Assembly: GCF_000421745.1 (NCBI RefSeq)
Contig: NZ_ATXP01000004.1
Span: 1-64,000 of the forward strand
Length of the DNA stretch: 64,000 nt
Direction of reading: 5' to 3'
From: Nesterenkonia alba DSM 19423
GTDB lineage: Bacteria > Actinomycetota > Actinomycetes > Actinomycetales > Micrococcaceae
Notes under the pieces: generated by a model
The model's input: the letters and a program-made list of their open reading frames with translations, nothing else
The model's database searches: none
Told to the model about the DNA's origin: nothing
Shown here: in pieces, positions 14,560 through 26,299 of the stretch
Layout: each line of letters opens with the position of its first letter
Position numbering within the stretch: position 1 is the stretch's first letter
Program-made: the position numbers and the translations under genes

Positions 14560-15513
14560 TTAATCCTGGGGCGGACGACGACGTCGCAGGTAACGTTCGA
14601 ACTCCTCCGCGATGGCTTCCCCGGAGGCCTCCGGCAGATTCGTGGTGTCGGTGGCTTCCTCTAGTCGCTTGACGTAGTCGGCGATTTCGGCGTCCTCTTC
14701 GGCCAGTTCATCGACCCCGCGTTCCCAGGCGGCCGCGTCGTCGGCGACCTCGGAAGTCTCCAGACTGATTCCCAGGATTTCTTCTAATTTACGCATCAGC
14801 GCCAATTGAGCCTTGGGGCTGGGGGCCTGCCCTACATAGTGCGGCACGGCCGCCCACAAGGACACTGAAGGAATCCCTGCCTGGTAGGCGGTATGGGCCA
14901 GGACCCCCACGATCCCCACCGGGCCCTCATAGGTGGGCTCCTCAACATCAAGCTCCTCACGGACGGATTCATCCTCTGAGGAGAACGAGGCCGGAATAGG
15001 GCGAGTATGCGGCACATCGGCCAGCAGCGCCCCCACCAGGACCACTGCGTCAGCGGAGTACTCGGCGGCCTTGGTCAGCAAATCCGCGGTGTAGGACTGC
15101 CACCGGAAACTGGGCTCCACCCCGTGGACGAAGAGCACATCGAATTCGGAGCGGGCAGGGGAGGCTTTCAAGATGGTGGTGGAAGGCCAGACGATCTCTC
15201 GGTGCCCCGCGTTGCGCACCACCTTGGGTCGGGAGAATTGGAAGTCGTAGTACTCCTCATCGGTGAGCTTCTCCACGACTTCGGCGTTCAGCGCCTGAGC
15301 GATGGCCCGTACCGCAGCGGAAGCCGCTCCACCGGCGTCATTCCAGCCCTCGAAGGCCATCACCATCACCGTGGGGCGACGGGGAGACCCGCCCTCGGCG
15401 GCGGAGAGCCGGCGCAGGTGGGCAGCAAACCGCCCAGCCCGGTCGATGCTCTCAGCCGGGCTGTCGGGGTGCTCAGAATCCGGTGTCACGTCATCGGAAC
15501 TCACGTTCTTCAC
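14560..15513 (-). CDS. PAC2-family protein
   Basis: Member of the PAC2 (proteasome assembly chaperone 2-like) family, 317 residues from a GTG; another GTG at 15504 is equally possible, since neither has a strong ribosome site. The family core appears as VMAFEGWNDAGGAAS near residue 50, VVLVGALLADVPHTRP near residue 145 and HTAYQAGIPSVSLWAAVPHYV near residue 205. A charged C-terminal tail ends in RYLRRRRP. Actinobacterial members have no proven function. The genome context is a Pup locus without proteasome genes, so a direct role in proteasome assembly is unlikely here. Confidence 0.85.
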   Translation of the reverse strand: MKNVSSDDVTPDSEHPDSPAESIDRAGRFAAHLRRLSAAEGGSPRRPTVMVMAFEGWNDAGGAASAAVRAIAQALNAEVVEKLTDEEYYDFQFSRPKVVRNAGHREIVWPSTTILKASPARSEFDVLFVHGVEPSFRWQSYTADLLTKAAEYSADAVVLVGALLADVPHTRPIPASFSSEDESVREELDVEEPTYEGPVGIVGVLAHTAYQAGIPSVSLWAAVPHYVGQAPSPKAQLALMRKLEEILGISLETSEVADDAAAWERGVDELAEEDAEIADYVKRLEEATDTTNLPEASGEAIAEEFERYLRRRRPPQD

Positions 15514-16251: not shown

Positions 16252-17288
16252 GTTCACCTGCTCGCGCCATCGGCGCTCACCTGCGTACCGGTGTGCTCAA
16301 ACCCGGCGAACGGGTCCAGCTCACCGATCCCAAGGGCCGTAAGTCCACTATCACCTTGGCCGAAGGTGGCCAGTGGCACACACACCAGGGTGTACTGCGG
16401 CACGAAACGCTCATTGGGCAGCCCGAGGGCATTGTGGTGACCAATGACGCCGGCCAGCCCTACCAGGTGTTGCGTCCGTTGCTCAACGACTATGTGCTCT
16501 CGATGCCGCGGGGGGCCACAGTGGTCTACCCCAAGGACTCCGCCCAGATCATCCAGGTCGCTGATATTTTCCCCGGGGCTCGGGTCGTGGAAGCCGGCGT
16601 CGGCTCCGGAGCCCTGTCTATCTCCCTGTTGCGTGCGGTGGGGGACACCGGCACCCTGACCTCCTACGAACGGCGGGAAGAATTCGCTGAGATCGCCCGC
16701 GGCAATGTCGAAGGGTTCTTCGGCGAGGCCCACCCCGGGTGGAGCATCCGGCTCGGTGACCTGCAGCAGCAAGCCCCTGAGCATCAGCAGCCCGGCAGCG
16801 TGGACCGTGTGGTCCTGGACATGCTCGCCCCCTGGGAGTGCTTGGAGGCGGTGAAACACATGCTGGCCCCTGGGGGAGTATGGGTCAGCTATGTGGCGAC
16901 TGTCACCCAGCTGAGTCGGTTGGCTGAGCAGATCCGCGCCTCCGAAGGATTTACCGAACCGGAGGGCCACGAAACGATGCTCCGCACCTGGCACCTCGAC
17001 GGTCTGGCGGTCCGTCCCGATCACCGCATGGTCGCTCACACCGGGTTTCTGCTCTCCACCCGGCGTCTGGCTGACAACCAGACCCCGTTGCAGCTGAAGA
17101 AACGCGAGAAAGCCAGCGAACCGGCCCCGGAGGACAAAGCCGCCTGGCCCGCTTATGACGAGGATGTGAGCTGGACCGAAGACAGCCTGAAGGCTCGCGT
17201 GGTATCGAAGAAGAAAGCCCGGCGCGCCGCCGCCCAGGCGACGCAGAATGCCGAGAAGGCCAAGGAGGTGCCCCGCGATGACCGATGA
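16248..17288 (+). CDS. trmI: tRNA (adenine-58-N1)-methyltransferase
   Basis: SAM-dependent enzyme that methylates A58 in the T-loop of tRNAs, 346 residues. An N-terminal beta domain precedes a Rossmann methyltransferase fold. The SAM loop is VVEAGVGSGALSISLLRAVG, motif II is TSYERREEFAEIARGN and motif IV is VDRVVLDMLAPWE. It carries a charged C-terminal extension (from about residue 285) rich in Lys, Glu and Ala that many TrmI proteins lack. It overlaps the HAD gene upstream and arc downstream (11 bases), placing it first in the Pup operon as in mycobacteria. Confidence 0.92.
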   Translation: MSSPARAIGAHLRTGVLKPGERVQLTDPKGRKSTITLAEGGQWHTHQGVLRHETLIGQPEGIVVTNDAGQPYQVLRPLLNDYVLSMPRGATVVYPKDSAQIIQVADIFPGARVVEAGVGSGALSISLLRAVGDTGTLTSYERREEFAEIARGNVEGFFGEAHPGWSIRLGDLQQQAPEHQQPGSVDRVVLDMLAPWECLEAVKHMLAPGGVWVSYVATVTQLSRLAEQIRASEGFTEPEGHETMLRTWHLDGLAVRPDHRMVAHTGFLLSTRRLADNQTPLQLKKREKASEPAPEDKAAWPAYDEDVSWTEDSLKARVVSKKKARRAAAQATQNAEKAKEVPRDDR

Positions 17289-19029
17289 GACCAGCACCGC
17301 GACCGAAGAACAGCTGAAGCACTTGCGTTCCCAACTGAAACGTGCGCACCGTCAGCTCGAGGACCTGCGCTCCCGCTACCGGGAGACCGAGACCCAGCTG
17401 CGTGCCGCCGGACGCAACAATGAACGGCTCTCCGGGATGCTGGAGGCTACCCGTGGGCAGATCAGCGAGCTGAAACAGGCTCTGGAGTCCGACGGGCAAC
17501 CGCCCTTTACCTACGCCACAGTGGTCGCTTACCGTCCGGCCCGTGAACGCACCGAGGGCAAGGAGATCGAAGCGACCACGGCCGCCGGCTGCGATGTGCT
17601 GCACTCCGGACGGAAACTGCGGGTGACGATCTCCCCGCTGATCGATCCGGAGCAGCTCATCCCAGGTTCCGAGGTGCTACTCAACGAGAACCTCACTGTG
17701 GTTGCCGTTTTGGATCCTGAACGCACCGGGGAGATCGCCCGCGTGAAAGAGGTTCTGCCTGACGGGCGCCTGGTGATCATCGCTCGTGGGGAAGAGGAAC
17801 GCGTCGTCGAACTCTCCGAGGCTGCTCGGCGTGCCGCAGAAGAGCACGACGACGCCGGCTCGCCCGACCGACCGGGCAGAGACCGTCAGCACCCCGTCCA
17901 GTTGGGTGACGCCGTCGTCGTGGATCTACGCACCGGCACAGCCACCGAGGTGGTCCCGCTCTCTGAGGTTGAAGACGTGGTCCTGGAGGAATCACCCGAT
18001 GTCTCCTACGAGGACATCGGCGGCCTGGCTGAGCAGATCGATCAGATCCGCGACGCCGTCGAACTACCGTTCCTCCATGCCGACCTCTACCGGGAGCACG
18101 GGTTGGCCGCACCGAAGGGAATCCTGCTCTACGGCCCACCGGGCTGCGGGAAGACGATGATCGCCAAAGCGGTCGCCTCTTCCTTGGACCGGGAATCCAC
18201 GGGAGCGAGTTTTCTCAATATCAAAGGTCCCGAGCTACTCAATAAATACGTGGGGGAGACCGAACGTCACATCCGGGTCATTTTCGCTCGCGCCCGGGAG
18301 CGCGCTTCGGCCGGCCGACCGGTTGTGGTGTTTTTCGATGAGATGGAGGCGTTGTTCCGTACCCGTGGCTCCGGGGTGTCCTCTGATGTGGAAACCACCA
18401 TTGTGCCGCAGCTGTTGGCCGAGATCGACGGGGTGGAGTCCTTGGACAACGTCATCATCATCGGTGCCTCCAACCGGGAAGACATGATCGATCCAGCGAT
18501 CCTGCGCCCCGGACGGCTCGACGTGAAGATCCGGGTTCAGCGCCCCGGGCTGGCCGGAGCCAAAGAGATCCTGCGCATTCACCTGTCCTCCACTGTGCCG
18601 TTGCGAGCCGATCTGGTCGCCGAGCACGGCTCCGCCGAGGCCGCCCGGGAGGCACTGATCGACGCAGTGGTCACCCGCCTGTACAAGCAGTCACGGGCCC
18701 TGCTGCGGCTGATCCATGCCGACGGGTCCACCACGACCTTCGGTTCCGAGGAGTTCATCTCCGGGGCGGTGCTGAGTAATATTGTCGATCGGGCGAAGAA
18801 AGCCGCTATCAAAGAGTTCCTGGCCGCCGATGAAGATCCCCGGGCTAAGGGTCTCACCGAGGCTCAGCTCATCGCCGCCGCTGAAGCTGAACTCGCCGAT
18901 CAGGTCGAATTGGTCAACACCGCCGATCCCAGTGAATGGGCCCGAATCCAGGGGGTGCCGCCCACTCCGGTGCTGCGGGTGGAGAAGCTCATCGACGCCG
19001 CGGGGCTGCGGCAGGCGGTGGGTACATGA
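17278..19029 (+). CDS. arc: ARC/Mpa AAA+ unfoldase of the Pup system, no GQYL tail
   Basis: Hexameric ATPase that recognises pupylated proteins and unfolds them. It has 583 residues: an N-terminal coiled coil that binds Pup (~residues 10-75), an OB-fold region, then the AAA module with Walker A GPPGCGKT (286-293) and Walker B FFDE (D354-E355). The ATG follows AAGGAGG. In proteasome-bearing species the protein ends in GQYL, which docks into the 20S pore; here the end is GLRQAVGT, so that key is missing. With no prcBA genes nearby, the partner is probably not a proteasome. It might act alone or with another protease. Confidence 0.93.
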   Translation: MTDETSTATEEQLKHLRSQLKRAHRQLEDLRSRYRETETQLRAAGRNNERLSGMLEATRGQISELKQALESDGQPPFTYATVVAYRPARERTEGKEIEATTAAGCDVLHSGRKLRVTISPLIDPEQLIPGSEVLLNENLTVVAVLDPERTGEIARVKEVLPDGRLVIIARGEEERVVELSEAARRAAEEHDDAGSPDRPGRDRQHPVQLGDAVVVDLRTGTATEVVPLSEVEDVVLEESPDVSYEDIGGLAEQIDQIRDAVELPFLHADLYREHGLAAPKGILLYGPPGCGKTMIAKAVASSLDRESTGASFLNIKGPELLNKYVGETERHIRVIFARARERASAGRPVVVFFDEMEALFRTRGSGVSSDVETTIVPQLLAEIDGVESLDNVIIIGASNREDMIDPAILRPGRLDVKIRVQRPGLAGAKEILRIHLSSTVPLRADLVAEHGSAEAAREALIDAVVTRLYKQSRALLRLIHADGSTTTFGSEEFISGAVLSNIVDRAKKAAIKEFLAADEDPRAKGLTEAQLIAAAEAELADQVELVNTADPSEWARIQGVPPTPVLRVEKLIDAAGLRQAVGT

Positions 19030-20771
19030 GCGTGCGTCGGCTCATCGGCATGGAGACTGAGTACGGGATCCACGCACCCTCGAATCCACGGGCTTCCCAT
19101 GTGGCGTTGAGTATTGAACTGGTCAACGCCTACGCGGCGGCCGTGACCGAGGCCGGAGGAGCGGTGGCCGGAACCGAATGGGATTACCAGTCTGAATCTC
19201 CGCTCGTCGACGCCCGAGGCTGGGTGTTGCCCCGCTCGGCGGCTCACCCCACTCAGCTGACCGACACCGACGAGGCGGTCTCCTATGCGGCCGAACAGGA
19301 ACCCGGTGCCGGTCCGTTGCGTGATGTGCTCGGCAATATCAGCGGTGGGGATCCCAGCCCGGCAGACGCCGCCGAACGTTCAGTCTTCGACCACGCTCCA
19401 GGCTCCGCCCACTGGCGGGGAGACTACTTTCAGCTCAAACCCGGTCAGCCGCAGTTGCTGATGAACCTGGTGTTGGCCAATGGGGCCCGGTTCTATGTGG
19501 ATCACGCCCATCCTGAGTACTCTGCCCCAGAAACGATCGGGGCCAAACGGGCGGTGCTCTACGACATCGCCGGGGACCGGATCGCCCGTACTGCCGCCCA
19601 GCGTCTTTCCCGCGAAGACGGCGCTCCAGAAGTGCTGCTGTACAAGAACAACACGGACAACAAGTCCGTCTCCTACGGCGCCCACGAGAACTACCTGGTT
19701 CCGCGGTCAGTGCCCTTCGATGACCTCATCACTGGGCTCATCCCGTTCTTCGTGTCCCGACAAATCCTCTGCGGCTCCGGACGGGTCGGCATCGGCCAAC
19801 GCGCTCAGACCGCTGGCTACCAGATCAGCCAGCGGGCTGATTTCTTCGAAGAACAGGTCGGCCTGGAGACCACGGTCCGCCGGCCGATCATCAACACCCG
19901 GGACGAACCGCACGCCCATCACGACTCGTGGCGACGGCTACACGTCATCATCGGTGATGCCAATATGAGCGAGTACTCCGCCTGGATGCGTGTGGCGACC
20001 ACTGCCCTGGTCTTAGACCTCATCGAATCCGGACAAGCCCCGAACCTGCGGTTGGCCGATCCGGTGGCTGCCTTAAAGACCATCAGCCACGACCCCGACC
20101 TCACCGCCACCGTGCGTACCGACCGCGGGCCCATGACCGCACTGGAGATCCAGCAGGTCTACCTCGAAGCAGCCCGGCAGCGGGCGGCCCAGCTGACCGC
20201 ACCCTCTTTGCCGCATATCGCCCCGGACACTGAGACTGCTGAGACCCTTGAAGCCTGGGAGGAGTTGCTCAGCGACCTCAGTGAGGATCCCTCCCGCGCC
20301 GCAGACCGGGTGGACTGGGTCGCCAAGCTCCAGCTCATTGAGTCCTACCGCCGCCGCGACGGGCTCAGCTGGGATTCGCCCCGGCTGGGCATGATTGACC
20401 TGCAGTACCACGATCTGCGTGAGGATAAGGGTCTCTACTACAAGCTGGCCCGGGCCGGGCGGCTGCGCCGGCTCTTCACCGACGACCAGATCGCCTGGGC
20501 GGCCCAGCACCCCCCGGAGGAGACCCGGGCCTGGCTCCGCGGGACCCTGGTGGAACACCACAATGACATCGTCGCGGGGGCTTCCTGGGACCAGATCCTG
20601 CTCCGCGAGGACCCCGCCAGTCCACCAGTGCGCCTGCACCTCAGTGAGCCCACCGCCGGTTCCCGCGTGGAGGCCGAACCAGTGTTACATCGCGCAGGCA
20701 CCCCGCGGGAACTCATTTCGTCGCTGGCAGAGCTACTCGAAGGCTCCGACACGTCACAGCACCGGCACTAG
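19026..20771 (+). CDS. dop: Dop, depupylase/deamidase
   Basis: Glutamine-synthetase-fold enzyme that removes Pup from tagged proteins and, in species whose Pup ends in Gln, converts that residue to Glu. It has 581 residues, somewhat longer than mycobacterial Dop, with extra sequence in the second half. The ATP/Mg site begins with METEYGIH; the catalytic aspartate lies in FYVDHAHPEYS; NTRDEPHAHH and RLHVIIGDANM follow. It overlaps arc by four bases (ATGA). Since Pup here already ends in Glu, deamidation is not needed and removal of Pup should be the main job. Confidence 0.93.
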   Translation: MSVRRLIGMETEYGIHAPSNPRASHVALSIELVNAYAAAVTEAGGAVAGTEWDYQSESPLVDARGWVLPRSAAHPTQLTDTDEAVSYAAEQEPGAGPLRDVLGNISGGDPSPADAAERSVFDHAPGSAHWRGDYFQLKPGQPQLLMNLVLANGARFYVDHAHPEYSAPETIGAKRAVLYDIAGDRIARTAAQRLSREDGAPEVLLYKNNTDNKSVSYGAHENYLVPRSVPFDDLITGLIPFFVSRQILCGSGRVGIGQRAQTAGYQISQRADFFEEQVGLETTVRRPIINTRDEPHAHHDSWRRLHVIIGDANMSEYSAWMRVATTALVLDLIESGQAPNLRLADPVAALKTISHDPDLTATVRTDRGPMTALEIQQVYLEAARQRAAQLTAPSLPHIAPDTETAETLEAWEELLSDLSEDPSRAADRVDWVAKLQLIESYRRRDGLSWDSPRLGMIDLQYHDLREDKGLYYKLARAGRLRRLFTDDQIAWAAQHPPEETRAWLRGTLVEHHNDIVAGASWDQILLREDPASPPVRLHLSEPTAGSRVEAEPVLHRAGTPRELISSLAELLEGSDTSQHRH

Positions 20772-20866
20772 CGGTGTGGCCTCTGTGCGCCCGGTGAGGG
20801 GACGGCACAGCGGAGACCCTGCGGGAATACCGCAGCCGGCCGATGACCTCTACCATGGGCAGATAC

Positions 20867-20888
20867 CTCGACGGGTTCTCGACGGGTT
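20867..20888 (+). repeat. Tandem 11-bp repeat before pup
   Basis: CTCGACGGGTT occurs twice in direct succession, ending two bases before the AAGGAG ribosome site of pup. It may be a regulator site or chance; nothing else supports a function. Confidence 0.4.
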
Positions 20889-20902
20889 CAAGGAGACGCA
20901 GT

Positions 20903-21106
20903 ATGGCAGCACAGCCGCAGAAGCAGCCGCACCGGTCTGGCGGATCAGACGACGCCGACCAGGCAGACCAGTCCCAGCTGAAGGCCAACCCTCAAGCCAC
21001 CCAGCGTGCTGAGGAACTCGACTCACTGCTTGATGAGATCGACACCGTCTTGGAGACCAACGCCGAAGAGTTCGTCAAAGGTTTCGTCCAGAAGGGCGGA
21101 GAATAA
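20903..21106 (+). CDS. pup: Pup, prokaryotic ubiquitin-like protein ending in GGE
   Basis: Small disordered tag joined through its C-terminal Glu to lysines of target proteins. It has 67 residues. The ATG at 20903 follows AAGGAG. The N-terminal half is rich in Gln, Asp and Ser; the helix-forming, ARC-binding part is AEELDSLLDEIDTVLETNAE; the end reads FVKGFVQKGGE. The last residue is Glu, not Gln, so it can be ligated by PafA without prior deamidation by Dop. The gene lies between dop and pafA with only three bases to pafA and no prcB/prcA after it. Confidence 0.95.
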   Translation: MAAQPQKQPHRSGGSDDADQADQSQLKANPQATQRAEELDSLLDEIDTVLETNAEEFVKGFVQKGGE

Positions 21107-21109
21107 GGC

Positions 21110-22600
21110 GTGGACCGTCGCGTCTACGGCGTCGAAACGGAGTTCGGCATCACTCACCGGCCCACCGCGGGCCGGGGCCTACCACCCGATGAGCTGGCCC
21201 GCTATCTCTTCCGTCCGGTCGTGGACTTCGGCCGCAGTTCGAACATCTTCATCCCCAATGGTGCCCGGCTCTACCTCGACGTCGGCTCCCACCCGGAGTA
21301 CGCCACCGCCGAGTGCGCTGATCTCATCGACCTCATCGCCCAGGACCGGGCGGGCGAAGCCATCATGCATGACCTCGCCGTGGAGGCCGAGCGGCGCATT
21401 GCCGCCGATGGCTTCACCGGCCAGATCTGGGTGTTGAAGAACAACGTGGACTCCGCTGGGAACTCCTACGGCAGCCACGAGAACTACCTCATTCCGCGCA
21501 CCACCCACTTCCGGCGGCTCTCCGGGATCTTGCTGCCGTTCTTGGTCACCCGCCAGATCCTCGTCGGCGCCGGACGGGTTGTCCCCAGCGACGATCAACG
21601 TCCAGCCCACTACGCGTTCTCTCAGCGGGCGGATCACATGTGGGAGGGCATCTCCTCGGCGACCACTCGGTCGCGGCCGATCATCAATACCCGCGACGAG
21701 CCCCACGCCGATGCTGCAGCACACCGGCGACTCCACGTCATCGTCGGTGATTCCAATATGTCGACGACGACGTCGCTGCTGCGTTACGGCTCCACAGACC
21801 TGGTGCTGCGCATGATTGAAGCGGGTGTGCCGATCGGTGATTTTGAACTGGAAAACCCCATCGGGGCAATCCGGCACATTAGCCACGACATCACCGCACG
21901 GGCCGAGGTCCGCATCCGCGGCGGAGAGACGATGACCGCGGTGCAGATCCAGCGCGGCCTGTTTGAGCGGGCTCAGCGGTTCGTGCGTGAACACGGAGCC
22001 CACCACGATCACGTCGAAACCGTTTTGGAACTGTGGGAGCGGACACTGACCGCAGTGGAGACCGGGGAACACGCGCTCATTGACCGGGACATCGACTGGG
22101 CGATCAAAAAACGGCTCGTCGAGGATGTCGCCAACGCCCGTGGTCTGGGCTACGACCACCCGCGCCTCGAGCAACTCGATATGGCCTACCACGACGTCAA
22201 CCCCGAGCGGGGACTTTTTCACCTACTGGTCCGTCGGGGGCGGGCAACTGACATCCTCAGCGCTGAACACGTCCGGCAGGCGATGATGACTCCGCCGCGG
22301 ACCCGGGCGGCGGTGCGCGGCGAGTTCCTCTCCACAGCTCGGGCTTTCGGTGCTGAAGCCACCGTGGACTGGGTGCATCACAAACTGGTGGACCGTCCGC
22401 TGGAAGCAGTGATGGTCAAAGACCCCTTCGCCCCTGAAGACGCGCGAGTTGAGGCTCTGCTGGACAAACTCGGCGATCGCCGCACCCAGCTGCGGGAAGT
22501 CAGTGCGGAAGAACGCCGTCGCAGTGGTGTCTGCCCGGCGCTGACTGATCGGTACGTGCTGGTCTCCGGTGGCACCACCGAGGACCCACCGGTGATCTGA
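21110..22600 (+). CDS. pafA: PafA, Pup-protein ligase
   Basis: ATP-dependent ligase that forms the isopeptide bond between the Pup C-terminal glutamate and substrate lysines. It has 496 residues. Glutamine-synthetase-like motifs are RRVYGVETEFGI at the start (Mg/ATP glutamates), LYLDVGSHPEYAT with the catalytic Asp near residue 64, NNVDSAGNSYGSHENYL and NTRDEPHADA. The protein is clearly related to Dop two genes upstream but shorter. The start is GTG. Close spacing to pup indicates co-transcription of tag and ligase. Confidence 0.94.
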   Translation: MDRRVYGVETEFGITHRPTAGRGLPPDELARYLFRPVVDFGRSSNIFIPNGARLYLDVGSHPEYATAECADLIDLIAQDRAGEAIMHDLAVEAERRIAADGFTGQIWVLKNNVDSAGNSYGSHENYLIPRTTHFRRLSGILLPFLVTRQILVGAGRVVPSDDQRPAHYAFSQRADHMWEGISSATTRSRPIINTRDEPHADAAAHRRLHVIVGDSNMSTTTSLLRYGSTDLVLRMIEAGVPIGDFELENPIGAIRHISHDITARAEVRIRGGETMTAVQIQRGLFERAQRFVREHGAHHDHVETVLELWERTLTAVETGEHALIDRDIDWAIKKRLVEDVANARGLGYDHPRLEQLDMAYHDVNPERGLFHLLVRRGRATDILSAEHVRQAMMTPPRTRAAVRGEFLSTARAFGAEATVDWVHHKLVDRPLEAVMVKDPFAPEDARVEALLDKLGDRRTQLREVSAEERRRSGVCPALTDRYVLVSGGTTEDPPVI

Positions 22601-24388: not shown

Positions 24389-26299
24389 GTGGGGTCTGAA
24401 CCGGCCGAGGACGTCAAACAGGATGTCCGCGCCGATACTGGTGTGGCCCGGGCACTATCGGTGGCCAAGACGATTCTCGACGCCGGCCAGGCCGGACTGA
24501 CCAAGGAGCAGATCCGACAACGGGTCGAGTTTTACCGCGACGCCGCCCGCGAAGGCCAGGACTTCGAGAGCTGGGACCGGCAATTCGGCCATGACAAGGC
24601 CTACCTGCGGGCCTCTGGGGTCCCCTTGCCGGAACCGAGTCCGGAAGACAACCGGTACCGGATCGACCCAGAGGAATACGGGCTGGCCGATTTGCACTTG
24701 ACTGCCGCCGAGCGGCTTGCGCTGCACCGGGCCCAGCTGATCTTCGCCAACAGCAATATCCGCGGGCTCGACCACGCTCTCTGGGCACTGAACCCGGGAG
24801 CCGAACCTCCGCGCGATGACGAGTCCCCCGAGGCACTGCAGGCCTCCATCGGTTCTGACACGGAGATTGAACGGCTGATGCAGATTGCTCGCATCGGCAT
24901 GCGCCAGCCGGTGCGCTTTGACTACACCTCCCGGGGCAAATTGCACGCTGAGACACGGCGGGTCATCACCCTGGGCACCGGGGCCCGCGGGCACTGGTAT
25001 CTGATTGGCCATGATCTCGACGCCGGTGAGATACGTACTTTCCGGCTAGACCGCATCCGGGAGAAGGTCACCTCCCTGGCACTTCAGGACGAAGAGGACC
25101 GCCGGCAAGCTGAGCGCATCGCCACCGGGCAGGACTACGCTGATGTTGACATCGCAGCGGTGGTGGAAAAGCTCCCGCACACCGAATCCCGGCAGAGCGT
25201 GCTCGAAGGCGCGTTCACCGCTCATCAGGGTCCGGCTCCGACCCGCCCTAAGCTGCGGCCGGTAACTCCTGGGCGAATCACCGACGCCGCCGAGGCGAAA
25301 GTCGACCGGGTCATCAATATGGCCGCCTACCTGCTCTCCAGCGGTGGGGCCCGGCCCAGCGAACTGATGCGTCGCTACGGCATCAGTGACAAACAGCTAC
25401 AGCGGGATCTGCTCAGCCTGCAGCAGACTGGAACCTTCACCTCCCAGTTCGGGGAGTTCACCGACGTCGAACCCATGCCGCCGCTGACGGTCGAAGAGTT
25501 CCGCACCGAATATCTCGCTGAGGATCCCGTCATTACCCTCACCGACCCTGGAGGACGCTCCGCGGAGGCGATGTCCCGGCCGGTGTCATTGACCAAACCC
25601 GGCGCACTCGGACTGCTCATCGCGCTCAAGGCGCTGATTGATGTGTGCCCGCCCGGAGAAGATGAGATCGTCGCCGCGGCGGAATCGCTGCAGCGCAAAC
25701 TCACAGCGATCGTGCCGGAGAAGCTCAGCCAGGCCGCCGAGACGATGGCGCTGGCCCGCACCCCGGCTGATGCGCGGGTGCTGGCGGCAGCCCGTTCTGC
25801 CATCCACGACGGTACGTGCCTGCACATCGAGTACACCGACGCTGAAGGTCGCCACTCATCCCGGGTCATTGAACCGGTTCAGGTGGTCTACGACGGTCCC
25901 GACACCTATTTGCGGGCCTGGTGCCGTCAAGCGGAGGCGGAACGGTTCTTCCTGCTCTCACGTATCGATAGCATCGAGGCGTTGCCTCACCAGCGCCGTG
26001 GTCGCCAGGCCGAACACGTGGAACTGACCGATGCGGTGCGACCCACCCCGCCGCGGACTGAGGACGCCGTGGATGTTGTGCTGCGCTTCGCGCCGGCGGC
26101 AGCTGGCGTGGCCGAGCGTTTCCACCCCCAGCGGGCGGCATGGGAATCAGACGGCGCCCGAGTGATCGCCACCTATTTCCGCTCCGAGGAAGCCCTCATA
26201 CGCCGGGTCATCGAATCCGGTGGTGACATCGAGGTCCTCGCCCCTGAGACCCTGCGGACTGAAGTGCTCCGCCGAGTCTCAGCACAGCTTCTGGGCTAG
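24389..26299 (+). CDS. pafBC: Fused PafB-PafC WYL-domain transcription activator
   Basis: DNA-damage-responsive activator. In mycobacteria PafB and PafC are two adjacent proteins that act together to turn on recA-independent (LexA-independent) SOS genes. Here both are joined in one 636-residue chain. Each half has an N-terminal winged helix (~residues 20-95 and ~305-375), a WYL domain (~150-215 and ~475-540) and a WCX end (HRQ/RR and FAPAAAGVAERF). The start is GTG after AAGGGGGAG. Such a natural fusion is known from Arthrobacter and fits a Micrococcaceae-like host. It sits downstream of the Pup genes, as usual. Confidence 0.9.
   Translation: MGSEPAEDVKQDVRADTGVARALSVAKTILDAGQAGLTKEQIRQRVEFYRDAAREGQDFESWDRQFGHDKAYLRASGVPLPEPSPEDNRYRIDPEEYGLADLHLTAAERLALHRAQLIFANSNIRGLDHALWALNPGAEPPRDDESPEALQASIGSDTEIERLMQIARIGMRQPVRFDYTSRGKLHAETRRVITLGTGARGHWYLIGHDLDAGEIRTFRLDRIREKVTSLALQDEEDRRQAERIATGQDYADVDIAAVVEKLPHTESRQSVLEGAFTAHQGPAPTRPKLRPVTPGRITDAAEAKVDRVINMAAYLLSSGGARPSELMRRYGISDKQLQRDLLSLQQTGTFTSQFGEFTDVEPMPPLTVEEFRTEYLAEDPVITLTDPGGRSAEAMSRPVSLTKPGALGLLIALKALIDVCPPGEDEIVAAAESLQRKLTAIVPEKLSQAAETMALARTPADARVLAAARSAIHDGTCLHIEYTDAEGRHSSRVIEPVQVVYDGPDTYLRAWCRQAEAERFFLLSRIDSIEALPHQRRGRQAEHVELTDAVRPTPPRTEDAVDVVLRFAPAAAGVAERFHPQRAAWESDGARVIATYFRSEEALIRRVIESGGDIEVLAPETLRTEVLRRVSAQLLG

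Follow-up and report, generated by a model that had tools for sequence, protein, structure and literature searches.

What does a pupylation system do in a genome without a 20S proteasome? This question is raised by a locus of Nesterenkonia alba DSM 19423, which lies in a window of 64,000 nt (the whole stretch of DNA that was analyzed, positions 1 to 64,000 of the forward strand of contig NZ_ATXP01000004.1). A previous, sequence-only reading had claimed that prcB and prcA are absent, and that three features, i.e., the missing prcBA genes, a Pup protein ending in GGE, and an ARC without a docking tail, agree that pupylation has no 20S outlet here. The analyses described below favor, with a probability of roughly 0.7, a complete and selected pupylation cycle that is uncoupled from 20S proteolysis in N. 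alba.

Four pupylation genes in a single locus

At positions 17278-22600 of the window, the genes arc, dop, pup and pafA form a tight run on the + strand, and each of the four products exceeded its own curated NCBIfam cut-off. The arc (mpa) gene (17278..19029, +) encodes 583 aa (TIGR03689, 676.9 bits, cut-off 504.75). ARC is an AAA+ ring ATPase with a coiled coil, a double OB fold and an AAA motor (Pfam OB_N, OB_C and AAA); the solved chains nearest to it in a fold comparison were those of M. tuberculosis Mpa, and three of the four best named ARC matches came from Nesterenkonia (68-72%). The motifs GPPGCGKT (18133..18156, +), KYVGETE (18244-18264, +) and FFDEME (18331-18348, +), which we take to be the Walker A motif, the pore loop and the Walker B motif, respectively, are intact. 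The dop gene for the depupylase/deamidase (19026..20771, +; 581 aa; TIGR03688, 591.2 bits, cut-off 492.3) starts within an ATGA overlap with the arc stop codon; its product keeps the catalytic loop NGARFYVDHAHPEYS and also matches a solved Dop structure. The pup gene (20903..21106, +; 67 aa) is preceded by AAGGAG and was recognized by TIGR03687 (73.9 bits, cut-off 41.45) as well as by PF05639 (73.1 bits). The Pup ligase gene pafA (21110..22600, +; 496 aa; TIGR03686, 653.4 bits, cut-off 551.3) has a GTG start, and the motif NGARLYLDVGSHPE is present in its product. Judged by motif patterns, the catalytic and motor motifs of ARC, Dop and PafA are all intact in N. alba.

The locus is flanked on the 5' side of arc by mshC, a PAC2-family gene, a HAD hydrolase gene and a methyltransferase-like gene, and on the 3' side of pafA by two FKBP genes, a gene for a PafC/WYL regulator, and tatC. 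The PAC2-family gene (14560-15513, −) has a name that links it to proteasome assembly chaperones, and the genome around it gave no proteasome match. The PafC/WYL regulator (24389-26299) has 636 aa and, by its length, is perhaps a fused PafBC. In Dop, the spacing of the motifs DARG and NGAR reveals a long Dop-loop region of 86 residues (19221..19478, +). In the 132 family genomes measured, this region ranged from 35 residues, in 16 relatives, to 92 residues, in Nesterenkonia. The Dop loop has been linked to the speed of depupylation (PMC12288473).

No 20S proteasome was found in the genome or in the genus members scanned

The claimed absence of prcB and prcA held on both scales at which it was assessed. 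Locally, the pup stop codon and the GTG of pafA are separated by 3 nt, so that neither prcBA nor a relic would fit there. The genome-wide search for prcA and prcB that had been proposed was run as a profile search with PF00227, which covers the alpha and beta subunits of the 20S core, and gave no match in the N. alba genome, an assembly of 2.59 Mb in 36 contigs with a completeness of 98.52%. PF00227 did find matches in 10 of 14 control genomes, but none in C. glutamicum; the matches in E. coli and B. subtilis presumably represent HslV/ClpQ. The only control genome with a match to the Pup profile was that of C. glutamicum, in agreement with the earlier claim that corynebacteria are similar. With an assembly in 36 contigs, prcBA might have been missed or might lie elsewhere in the genome. 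This is hardly credible, given the 3 nt between pup and pafA, the absence of PF00227 matches also from all six other Nesterenkonia genomes scanned, and the position of the PafA N-terminal motif, which starts 12-44 nt past the pup stop codon in 29 of 30 genomes of the genus (G579 was not resolved).

The proteasome activator Bpa (PF10759) likewise had no match in the N. alba genome. The co-occurrence of Bpa and the 20S core has been called strict (PMC8223512, PMC4254994), but 11 of the 79 proteasome-bearing relatives lacked a Bpa match and a twelfth had one only below the cut-off. Bpa was thus rejected as a strict 20S marker in this family, and is a weak criterion for a degradative Pup-proteasome system.

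Pupylation outlives the proteasome

The configuration of N. alba is common in its family. Pup was detected in all but one of 149 family genomes (148), the exception being a genome that is 82% complete, and in 30/30 genomes of the genus, whereas PF00227 matched in 79 of the 149, spread over 19 of 32 genera. Altogether, 69 of the 149 genomes have Pup and no 20S match. These numbers show that pupylation outlives the proteasome and is kept where the 20S core is gone. The proteasome was probably lost by descent in the family, rather than by a recent accident in N. alba.

Elsewhere in the phylum, Pup without a proteasome is rarer. In a phylum-wide draw of 326 genomes, Pup was present in 144 and prcB in 139; nine genomes, N. 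alba among them, had Pup without prcB (one of these Pup matches was below the cut-off and two were on contigs of <7 kb), and the converse, prcB with no match to Pup, was seen in four, one of them a weak case. In a second family, that of a Mycobacterium-like genome (the name was guessed from sequence), 101 genomes were drawn, of which 100 had Pup and 89 had prcB, with 11 having Pup only. All counts refer to the genomes drawn, not to all that exist. A small-genome lineage of another family, far from N. alba (G171, G208 and G346 with loci L275, L276 and L277; about 1.7 Mb), also has Pup without prcB and an ARC without GQYL.

The pathway is under purifying selection in the genus

Across four pairs of genomes within the genus, dN/dS ranged over 0.20-0.23 (arc), 0.17-0.19 (dop), 0.10-0.18 (pafA) and 0.17-0.39 (pup), computed on frames running from stop to stop, so that some sequence preceding the start codons is mixed in, most for pup. 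In a motif census, strict patterns had given false misses and were replaced by looser ones, with which the motor and catalytic motifs were found intact in nearly all proteasome-less relatives. The remaining misses concerned parts of ARC located outside the stretch (G014, G068, G124), six PafA and eight Dop proteins; all six PafA misses and five of the eight Dop misses differed from the pattern by a single letter and retained the aspartate, and the other three Dop misses were those of G005, G061 and G083.

These data bear on two alternatives. The pathway could be a decaying remnant heading for loss, and the C-terminal module of ARC is indeed eroding (see below). The occurrence of Pup in nearly the entire family and in every genome of the genus, together with the purifying selection, makes this very improbable. 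Alternatively, Pup itself could be a reversible signal that is attached by PafA and removed by Dop, in which case ARC would just help Dop or be nearly vestigial. The dN/dS values of Dop and PafA, which were below that of ARC in all four pairs, are in line with this idea, as is the report that Mpa enhances depupylation in vitro, which has been suggested as a reason for keeping the ATPase (PMC3511204). However, ARC was present in all 68 of the 69 proteasome-less genomes whose stretch reached arc, and its Walker, pore-loop and arginine-finger motifs were kept wherever the stretch covered them. Such conservation would be surprising for a vestigial ATP-driven ring, and we regard a role of Pup purely as a signal as rather improbable, although it is the strongest of the competing explanations of the complete cycle.

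ARC has lost both contacts to the 20S core

LRVEKL (18973-18990, +; residues 565-570 in the AlphaFold2 model) forms the final beta-strand of the beta-grasp domain of ARC and is followed by a 12-residue end without a docking motif, IDAAGLRQAVGT (18991-19026, +), of which residues 574-583 have a pLDDT of <50. The C-terminus thus reads AAGLRQAVGT and has no GQYL, just as had been noticed from the sequence. GQYL is also absent from the ARCs of all six other genus members in which ARC was read and from three named Nesterenkonia loci, which makes a sequencing error unlikely. The end of ARC was readable in 147 of the 148 Pup-positive family genomes; of these, 67 of the 68 without a proteasome lacked GQYL, while 76 of the 79 with one had it. 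GQYL was likewise missing from 11/11 ARCs of Pup-positive, prcB-less genomes in the second family, which also lacked the acidic residue at position 504 discussed below, and from four more ARCs from two other families, of which that of G171 retains both hairpin acids.

A second contact with the 20S core is made by a beta-hairpin of ARC (PMC9599533, PMC8755798). Its residues 501-505 are conserved in species with a proteasome but, except for the glycine, not in those without, and when the C. glutamicum hairpin was swapped into Mpa, degradation was impaired and ATPase activity increased (PMC8755798). In an alignment of 146 family ARCs, the hairpin tip of N. alba is ADGST (18718..18732, +), compared to ANGDK at Mpa positions 501-505. 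The alanine at 501 and the glycine are retained, positions 502, 504 and 505 are altered, with D504 replaced by serine, and E506 just behind is replaced by threonine. An acidic residue at 504 was found in 77 of 79 proteasome-bearing versus 7 of 67 proteasome-less family ARCs, E506 in 78/79 versus 19/67 (one of the 67, G012, has a gap), and both together in 75/78 versus 5/66.

The decay was then mapped onto the whole protein, counting columns that are conserved in the GQYL-bearing set and fall to <50% in proteasome-less ARCs, with limits of the parts that were chosen by us. In the AAA small domain plus beta-grasp domain, 27 of 80 columns had decayed, as had all 6 of the tail. The AAA large domain had 7 such columns among 153, the OB part 6 among 38 and the coil 3 among 14. 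The decay is thus concentrated at the end of ARC that faces the 20S core. After correction for kinship on the family tree, which carries long-branch warnings, only 5-6 independent pairs remained, and the median p values of the sign test were 0.25 (tail) and 0.5 (hairpin). For both tail and hairpin, every independent pair that differs does so in the expected direction, with too few pairs for significance.

The residues behind the last beta-grasp strand vary between genera, but are alike within some. A genus-specific motif is therefore conceivable (G049, G073 and G125 share similar ends, as do G020, G048 and G092), and two ClpP-family genes are present in the N. alba genome. ARC might thus have changed its partner and feed pupylated proteins to another peptidase, e.g., ClpP. 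We consider such a switch unlikely, because the ends differ between genera, unlike what one shared new docking motif would produce, and because the hairpin face decays and has been deleted outright in close relatives. An apparent new conserved motif at the end of ARC, [IV]..[IV]R.L, was rejected: it is the old last beta-grasp strand, which also precedes GQYL in proteasome-bearing ARCs.

The deletions concern L004, L001 (ARC from 7001) and the ARC of G012 (L184), in which the entire beta-grasp docking domain is gone while AAA motor, OB fold and coiled coil are retained. Excision of the beta-grasp domain from ARC was not found in the literature searched, which did not cover most subscription journals. 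ARC rings that naturally lack the docking domain would be useful for testing the purpose of that domain. In the genus g14, short frames had given the impression of a broken ARC, which turned out to be an artefact of where the sequence stretches ended. The same genus (L175, L186, L191) has about 2-2.7 kb of additional sequence between dop and pup.

The Pup ending does not track proteasome loss

The Pup of N. alba ends in QKGGE and is thus already in the Glu form, so that, as the sequence-only reading had stated, deamidation by Dop is not needed. Taking this ending as a feature that matches proteasome loss, on the other hand, was contradicted by the counts. Among the 69 proteasome-less family genomes, 62 Pups end in GGQ and 7 in GGE, compared to 78 and 1 among the 79 proteasome-bearing genomes. 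A Fisher test on this plain table leans toward the claim (p 0.026). When independent pairs on the tree were compared, however, loss of the proteasome was almost never accompanied by a matching Q/E letter. In Nesterenkonia itself GGQ (20 of 30) outnumbers GGE (10 of 30), GGE is present in 8 of the 62 named loci that combine prcB and GQYL with a readable Pup, and all nine named loci in which at most 63 nt separate pup from pafA have GGQ. On these grounds, GGE was rejected as a sign of proteasome loss. The sister of N. alba, G012, has GGQ, and GGE is found in four further members of the genus that are placed on another branch, which implies that the letter changed more than once in the genus or reverted.

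The Gln or Glu ending is described as species-dependent, and PupE bypasses deamidation while Dop stays as depupylase; Dop is kept whichever the ending because it also removes Pup (PMC3511204). Taken together, two of the three features that were said to agree on a missing 20S outlet, the absence of prcBA and an ARC without docking sites, do so, and GGE does not. The decayed hairpin serves better as the third feature, and it is already in print for other species.

Intermediate genomes show both orders of loss

INTERMEDIATES (G008, G001, G093 and G110) show both orders, loss of the 20S core first and loss of docking first. G008 has no PF00227 match genome-wide, and its ARC still ends in GQYL. Its Bpa match (L269) lacks the first part of the profile and also ends in GQYL, and the 276-nt gap between pup and pafA (L210) contains a piece resembling the start of prcB (E 0.002) and a piece resembling the end of prcA (E 2e-6), which is what a recent deletion of prcBA would leave.

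The reverse situation is found in G001 (L157), G093 (L190) and G110 (L199), in which prcB and prcA are located between pup and pafA. In these three genomes, ARC has no GQYL, its hairpin does not have the complete pair of acids, and Bpa had no match. The catalytic region of their PrcB proteins is intact by eye. For G093 versus G110, dN/dS was 0.12 for prcB and 0.11 for prcA, rough values owing to a high dS, which fall inside the 0.05-0.23 spanned by other pairs with a proteasome, indicating that these genes are still selected. A regain of prcBA by transfer was considered; the PrcBA proteins of the three genomes form one branch inside that of the family and the genes sit between pup and pafA, which favors descent, albeit on stems that are very long, at 1.19 changes per column for the group of three and 1.49 for G093 with G110. 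Over the whole tree, the history of the 20S core requires 11 losses if only losses are allowed, or 6 changes if they are unordered and genes may return. Neither prcBA next to a non-docking ARC nor a prcBA deletion scar of the G008 type, with GQYL still on ARC and Bpa, was found in the literature searched, in which most subscription journals were not covered.

A more detailed scenario for a large clade of the family is offered tentatively, at less than even odds. Pupylation would have become independent of the proteasome before prcBA was lost: ARC would have lost both 20S contacts and Bpa would have disappeared while prcBA was still present, the three last carriers drawn would hold a fast-evolving 20S core without a docking partner among ARC and Bpa, and prcBA would have been dropped repeatedly. 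In the genus of N. alba itself, ARC would have moved on to another architecture, that of a Pup-dependent AAA unfoldase from which the entire beta-grasp docking domain is excised, acting on a client other than ferritin.

A proposed proteasome-independent cycle and its client

For the uncoupled cycle in N. alba, the following steps are proposed. By homology, PafA would join the Glu form of Pup to lysines of target proteins, and the N-terminal coiled coils of ARC would catch Pup. The ARC ring, with its intact motor, would then thread, unfold or dismantle the tagged protein or complex. By sequence, both contacts for handover to the 20S core are gone, i.e., the GQYL tail and the acidic residues of the hairpin tip. 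The unfolded protein would be released, and Dop would remove Pup for reuse. We infer release of unfolded clients rather than their breakdown by a protease such as ClpP.

For pupylation without a proteasome, the client on record is the ferritin of a single species, C. glutamicum (reviews PMC8223512, PMC12288473), and unfolding of pupylated ferritin by ARC has been proposed for this species (PMC8223512). No ferritin was found in the N. alba genome: the sole PF00210 match (78.5 bits) is Dps-like, its best NCBIfam match being Dps with 100 bits, below the cut-off of 114. The literature searched did not mention this lack of ferritin either. The client is therefore probably not ferritin, and Dps may have a role in proteasome-less pupylation. 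G012 has a ferritin (PF00210, 114 bits; best NCBIfam match non-heme ferritin, 91 bits, cut-off 178). With a line for ferritin-type proteins that we drew at PF00210 >94 bits and checked by a protein-family search on a single protein above and a single protein below it, such matches were obtained in 48 of 69 proteasome-less and 44 of 79 proteasome-bearing genomes. The other 21 proteasome-less genomes had no such match, so that ferritin is probably not what keeps the pathway in general. Species of the family without a ferritin match thus make it possible to tell the ferritin explanation apart from the factor that maintains the pathway throughout.

Comparison with known systems

The mycobacterial Mpa-20S system uses the same four enzymes, and the fold comparison aligned 452 residues of N. 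alba ARC with Mpa at 50% identity. Unlike the mycobacterial system, N. alba has no 20S core, no Bpa match and no GQYL, and its hairpin contact has decayed. The named Micrococcus and Kocuria loci (L003, a Micrococcus MAG, and L035, L037 and L038 of Kocuria), from two genera of the Micrococcaceae, resemble N. alba in gene order, in a distance of <=7 nt between pup and pafA, and in an ARC without GQYL; their Pups, however, end in GGQ and need deamidation by Dop, in contrast to that of N. alba. M. luteus, we assume, also belongs to the prcBA-less Actinobacteria. Loss of prcBA in a subgroup of Actinobacteria has been described, with M. luteus among the species named in a figure legend (PMC8223512).

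No publication on pupylation in Nesterenkonia was found in the literature search. In genomes without a proteasome, it was already reported in 2012 that pup directly precedes pafA, that the ATPase is kept and that its docking motif is missing, and the same review suggested looking for roles of pupylation beyond the proteasome in actinobacteria without proteasome genes (PMC3511204). The family studied here offers 69 proteasome-less genomes among 149, repeated losses, and intermediates in both orders. What merits further attention here are these intermediates, the ARC that lost a domain, and the lack of ferritin. A tag that is retained without a proteasome, and commonly so in this family, points to another job for Pup.

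The closest parallel is C. glutamicum. Like N. alba, it has Pup and no PF00227 match, as seen in our control search, pup directly before pafA, an ARC without the docking motif, and PupE (PMC3511204); its hairpin residues 501-505 are IDGSV (PMC8755798), compared to ADGST in N. alba. The two differ in that C. glutamicum has a ferritin client (PMC8223512, PMC12288473), whereas only Dps was found in N. alba, and in that they belong to different families, which implies separate losses of the proteasome. N. alba is a further case of the proteasome-less pupylation that has been known from corynebacteria since 2012.
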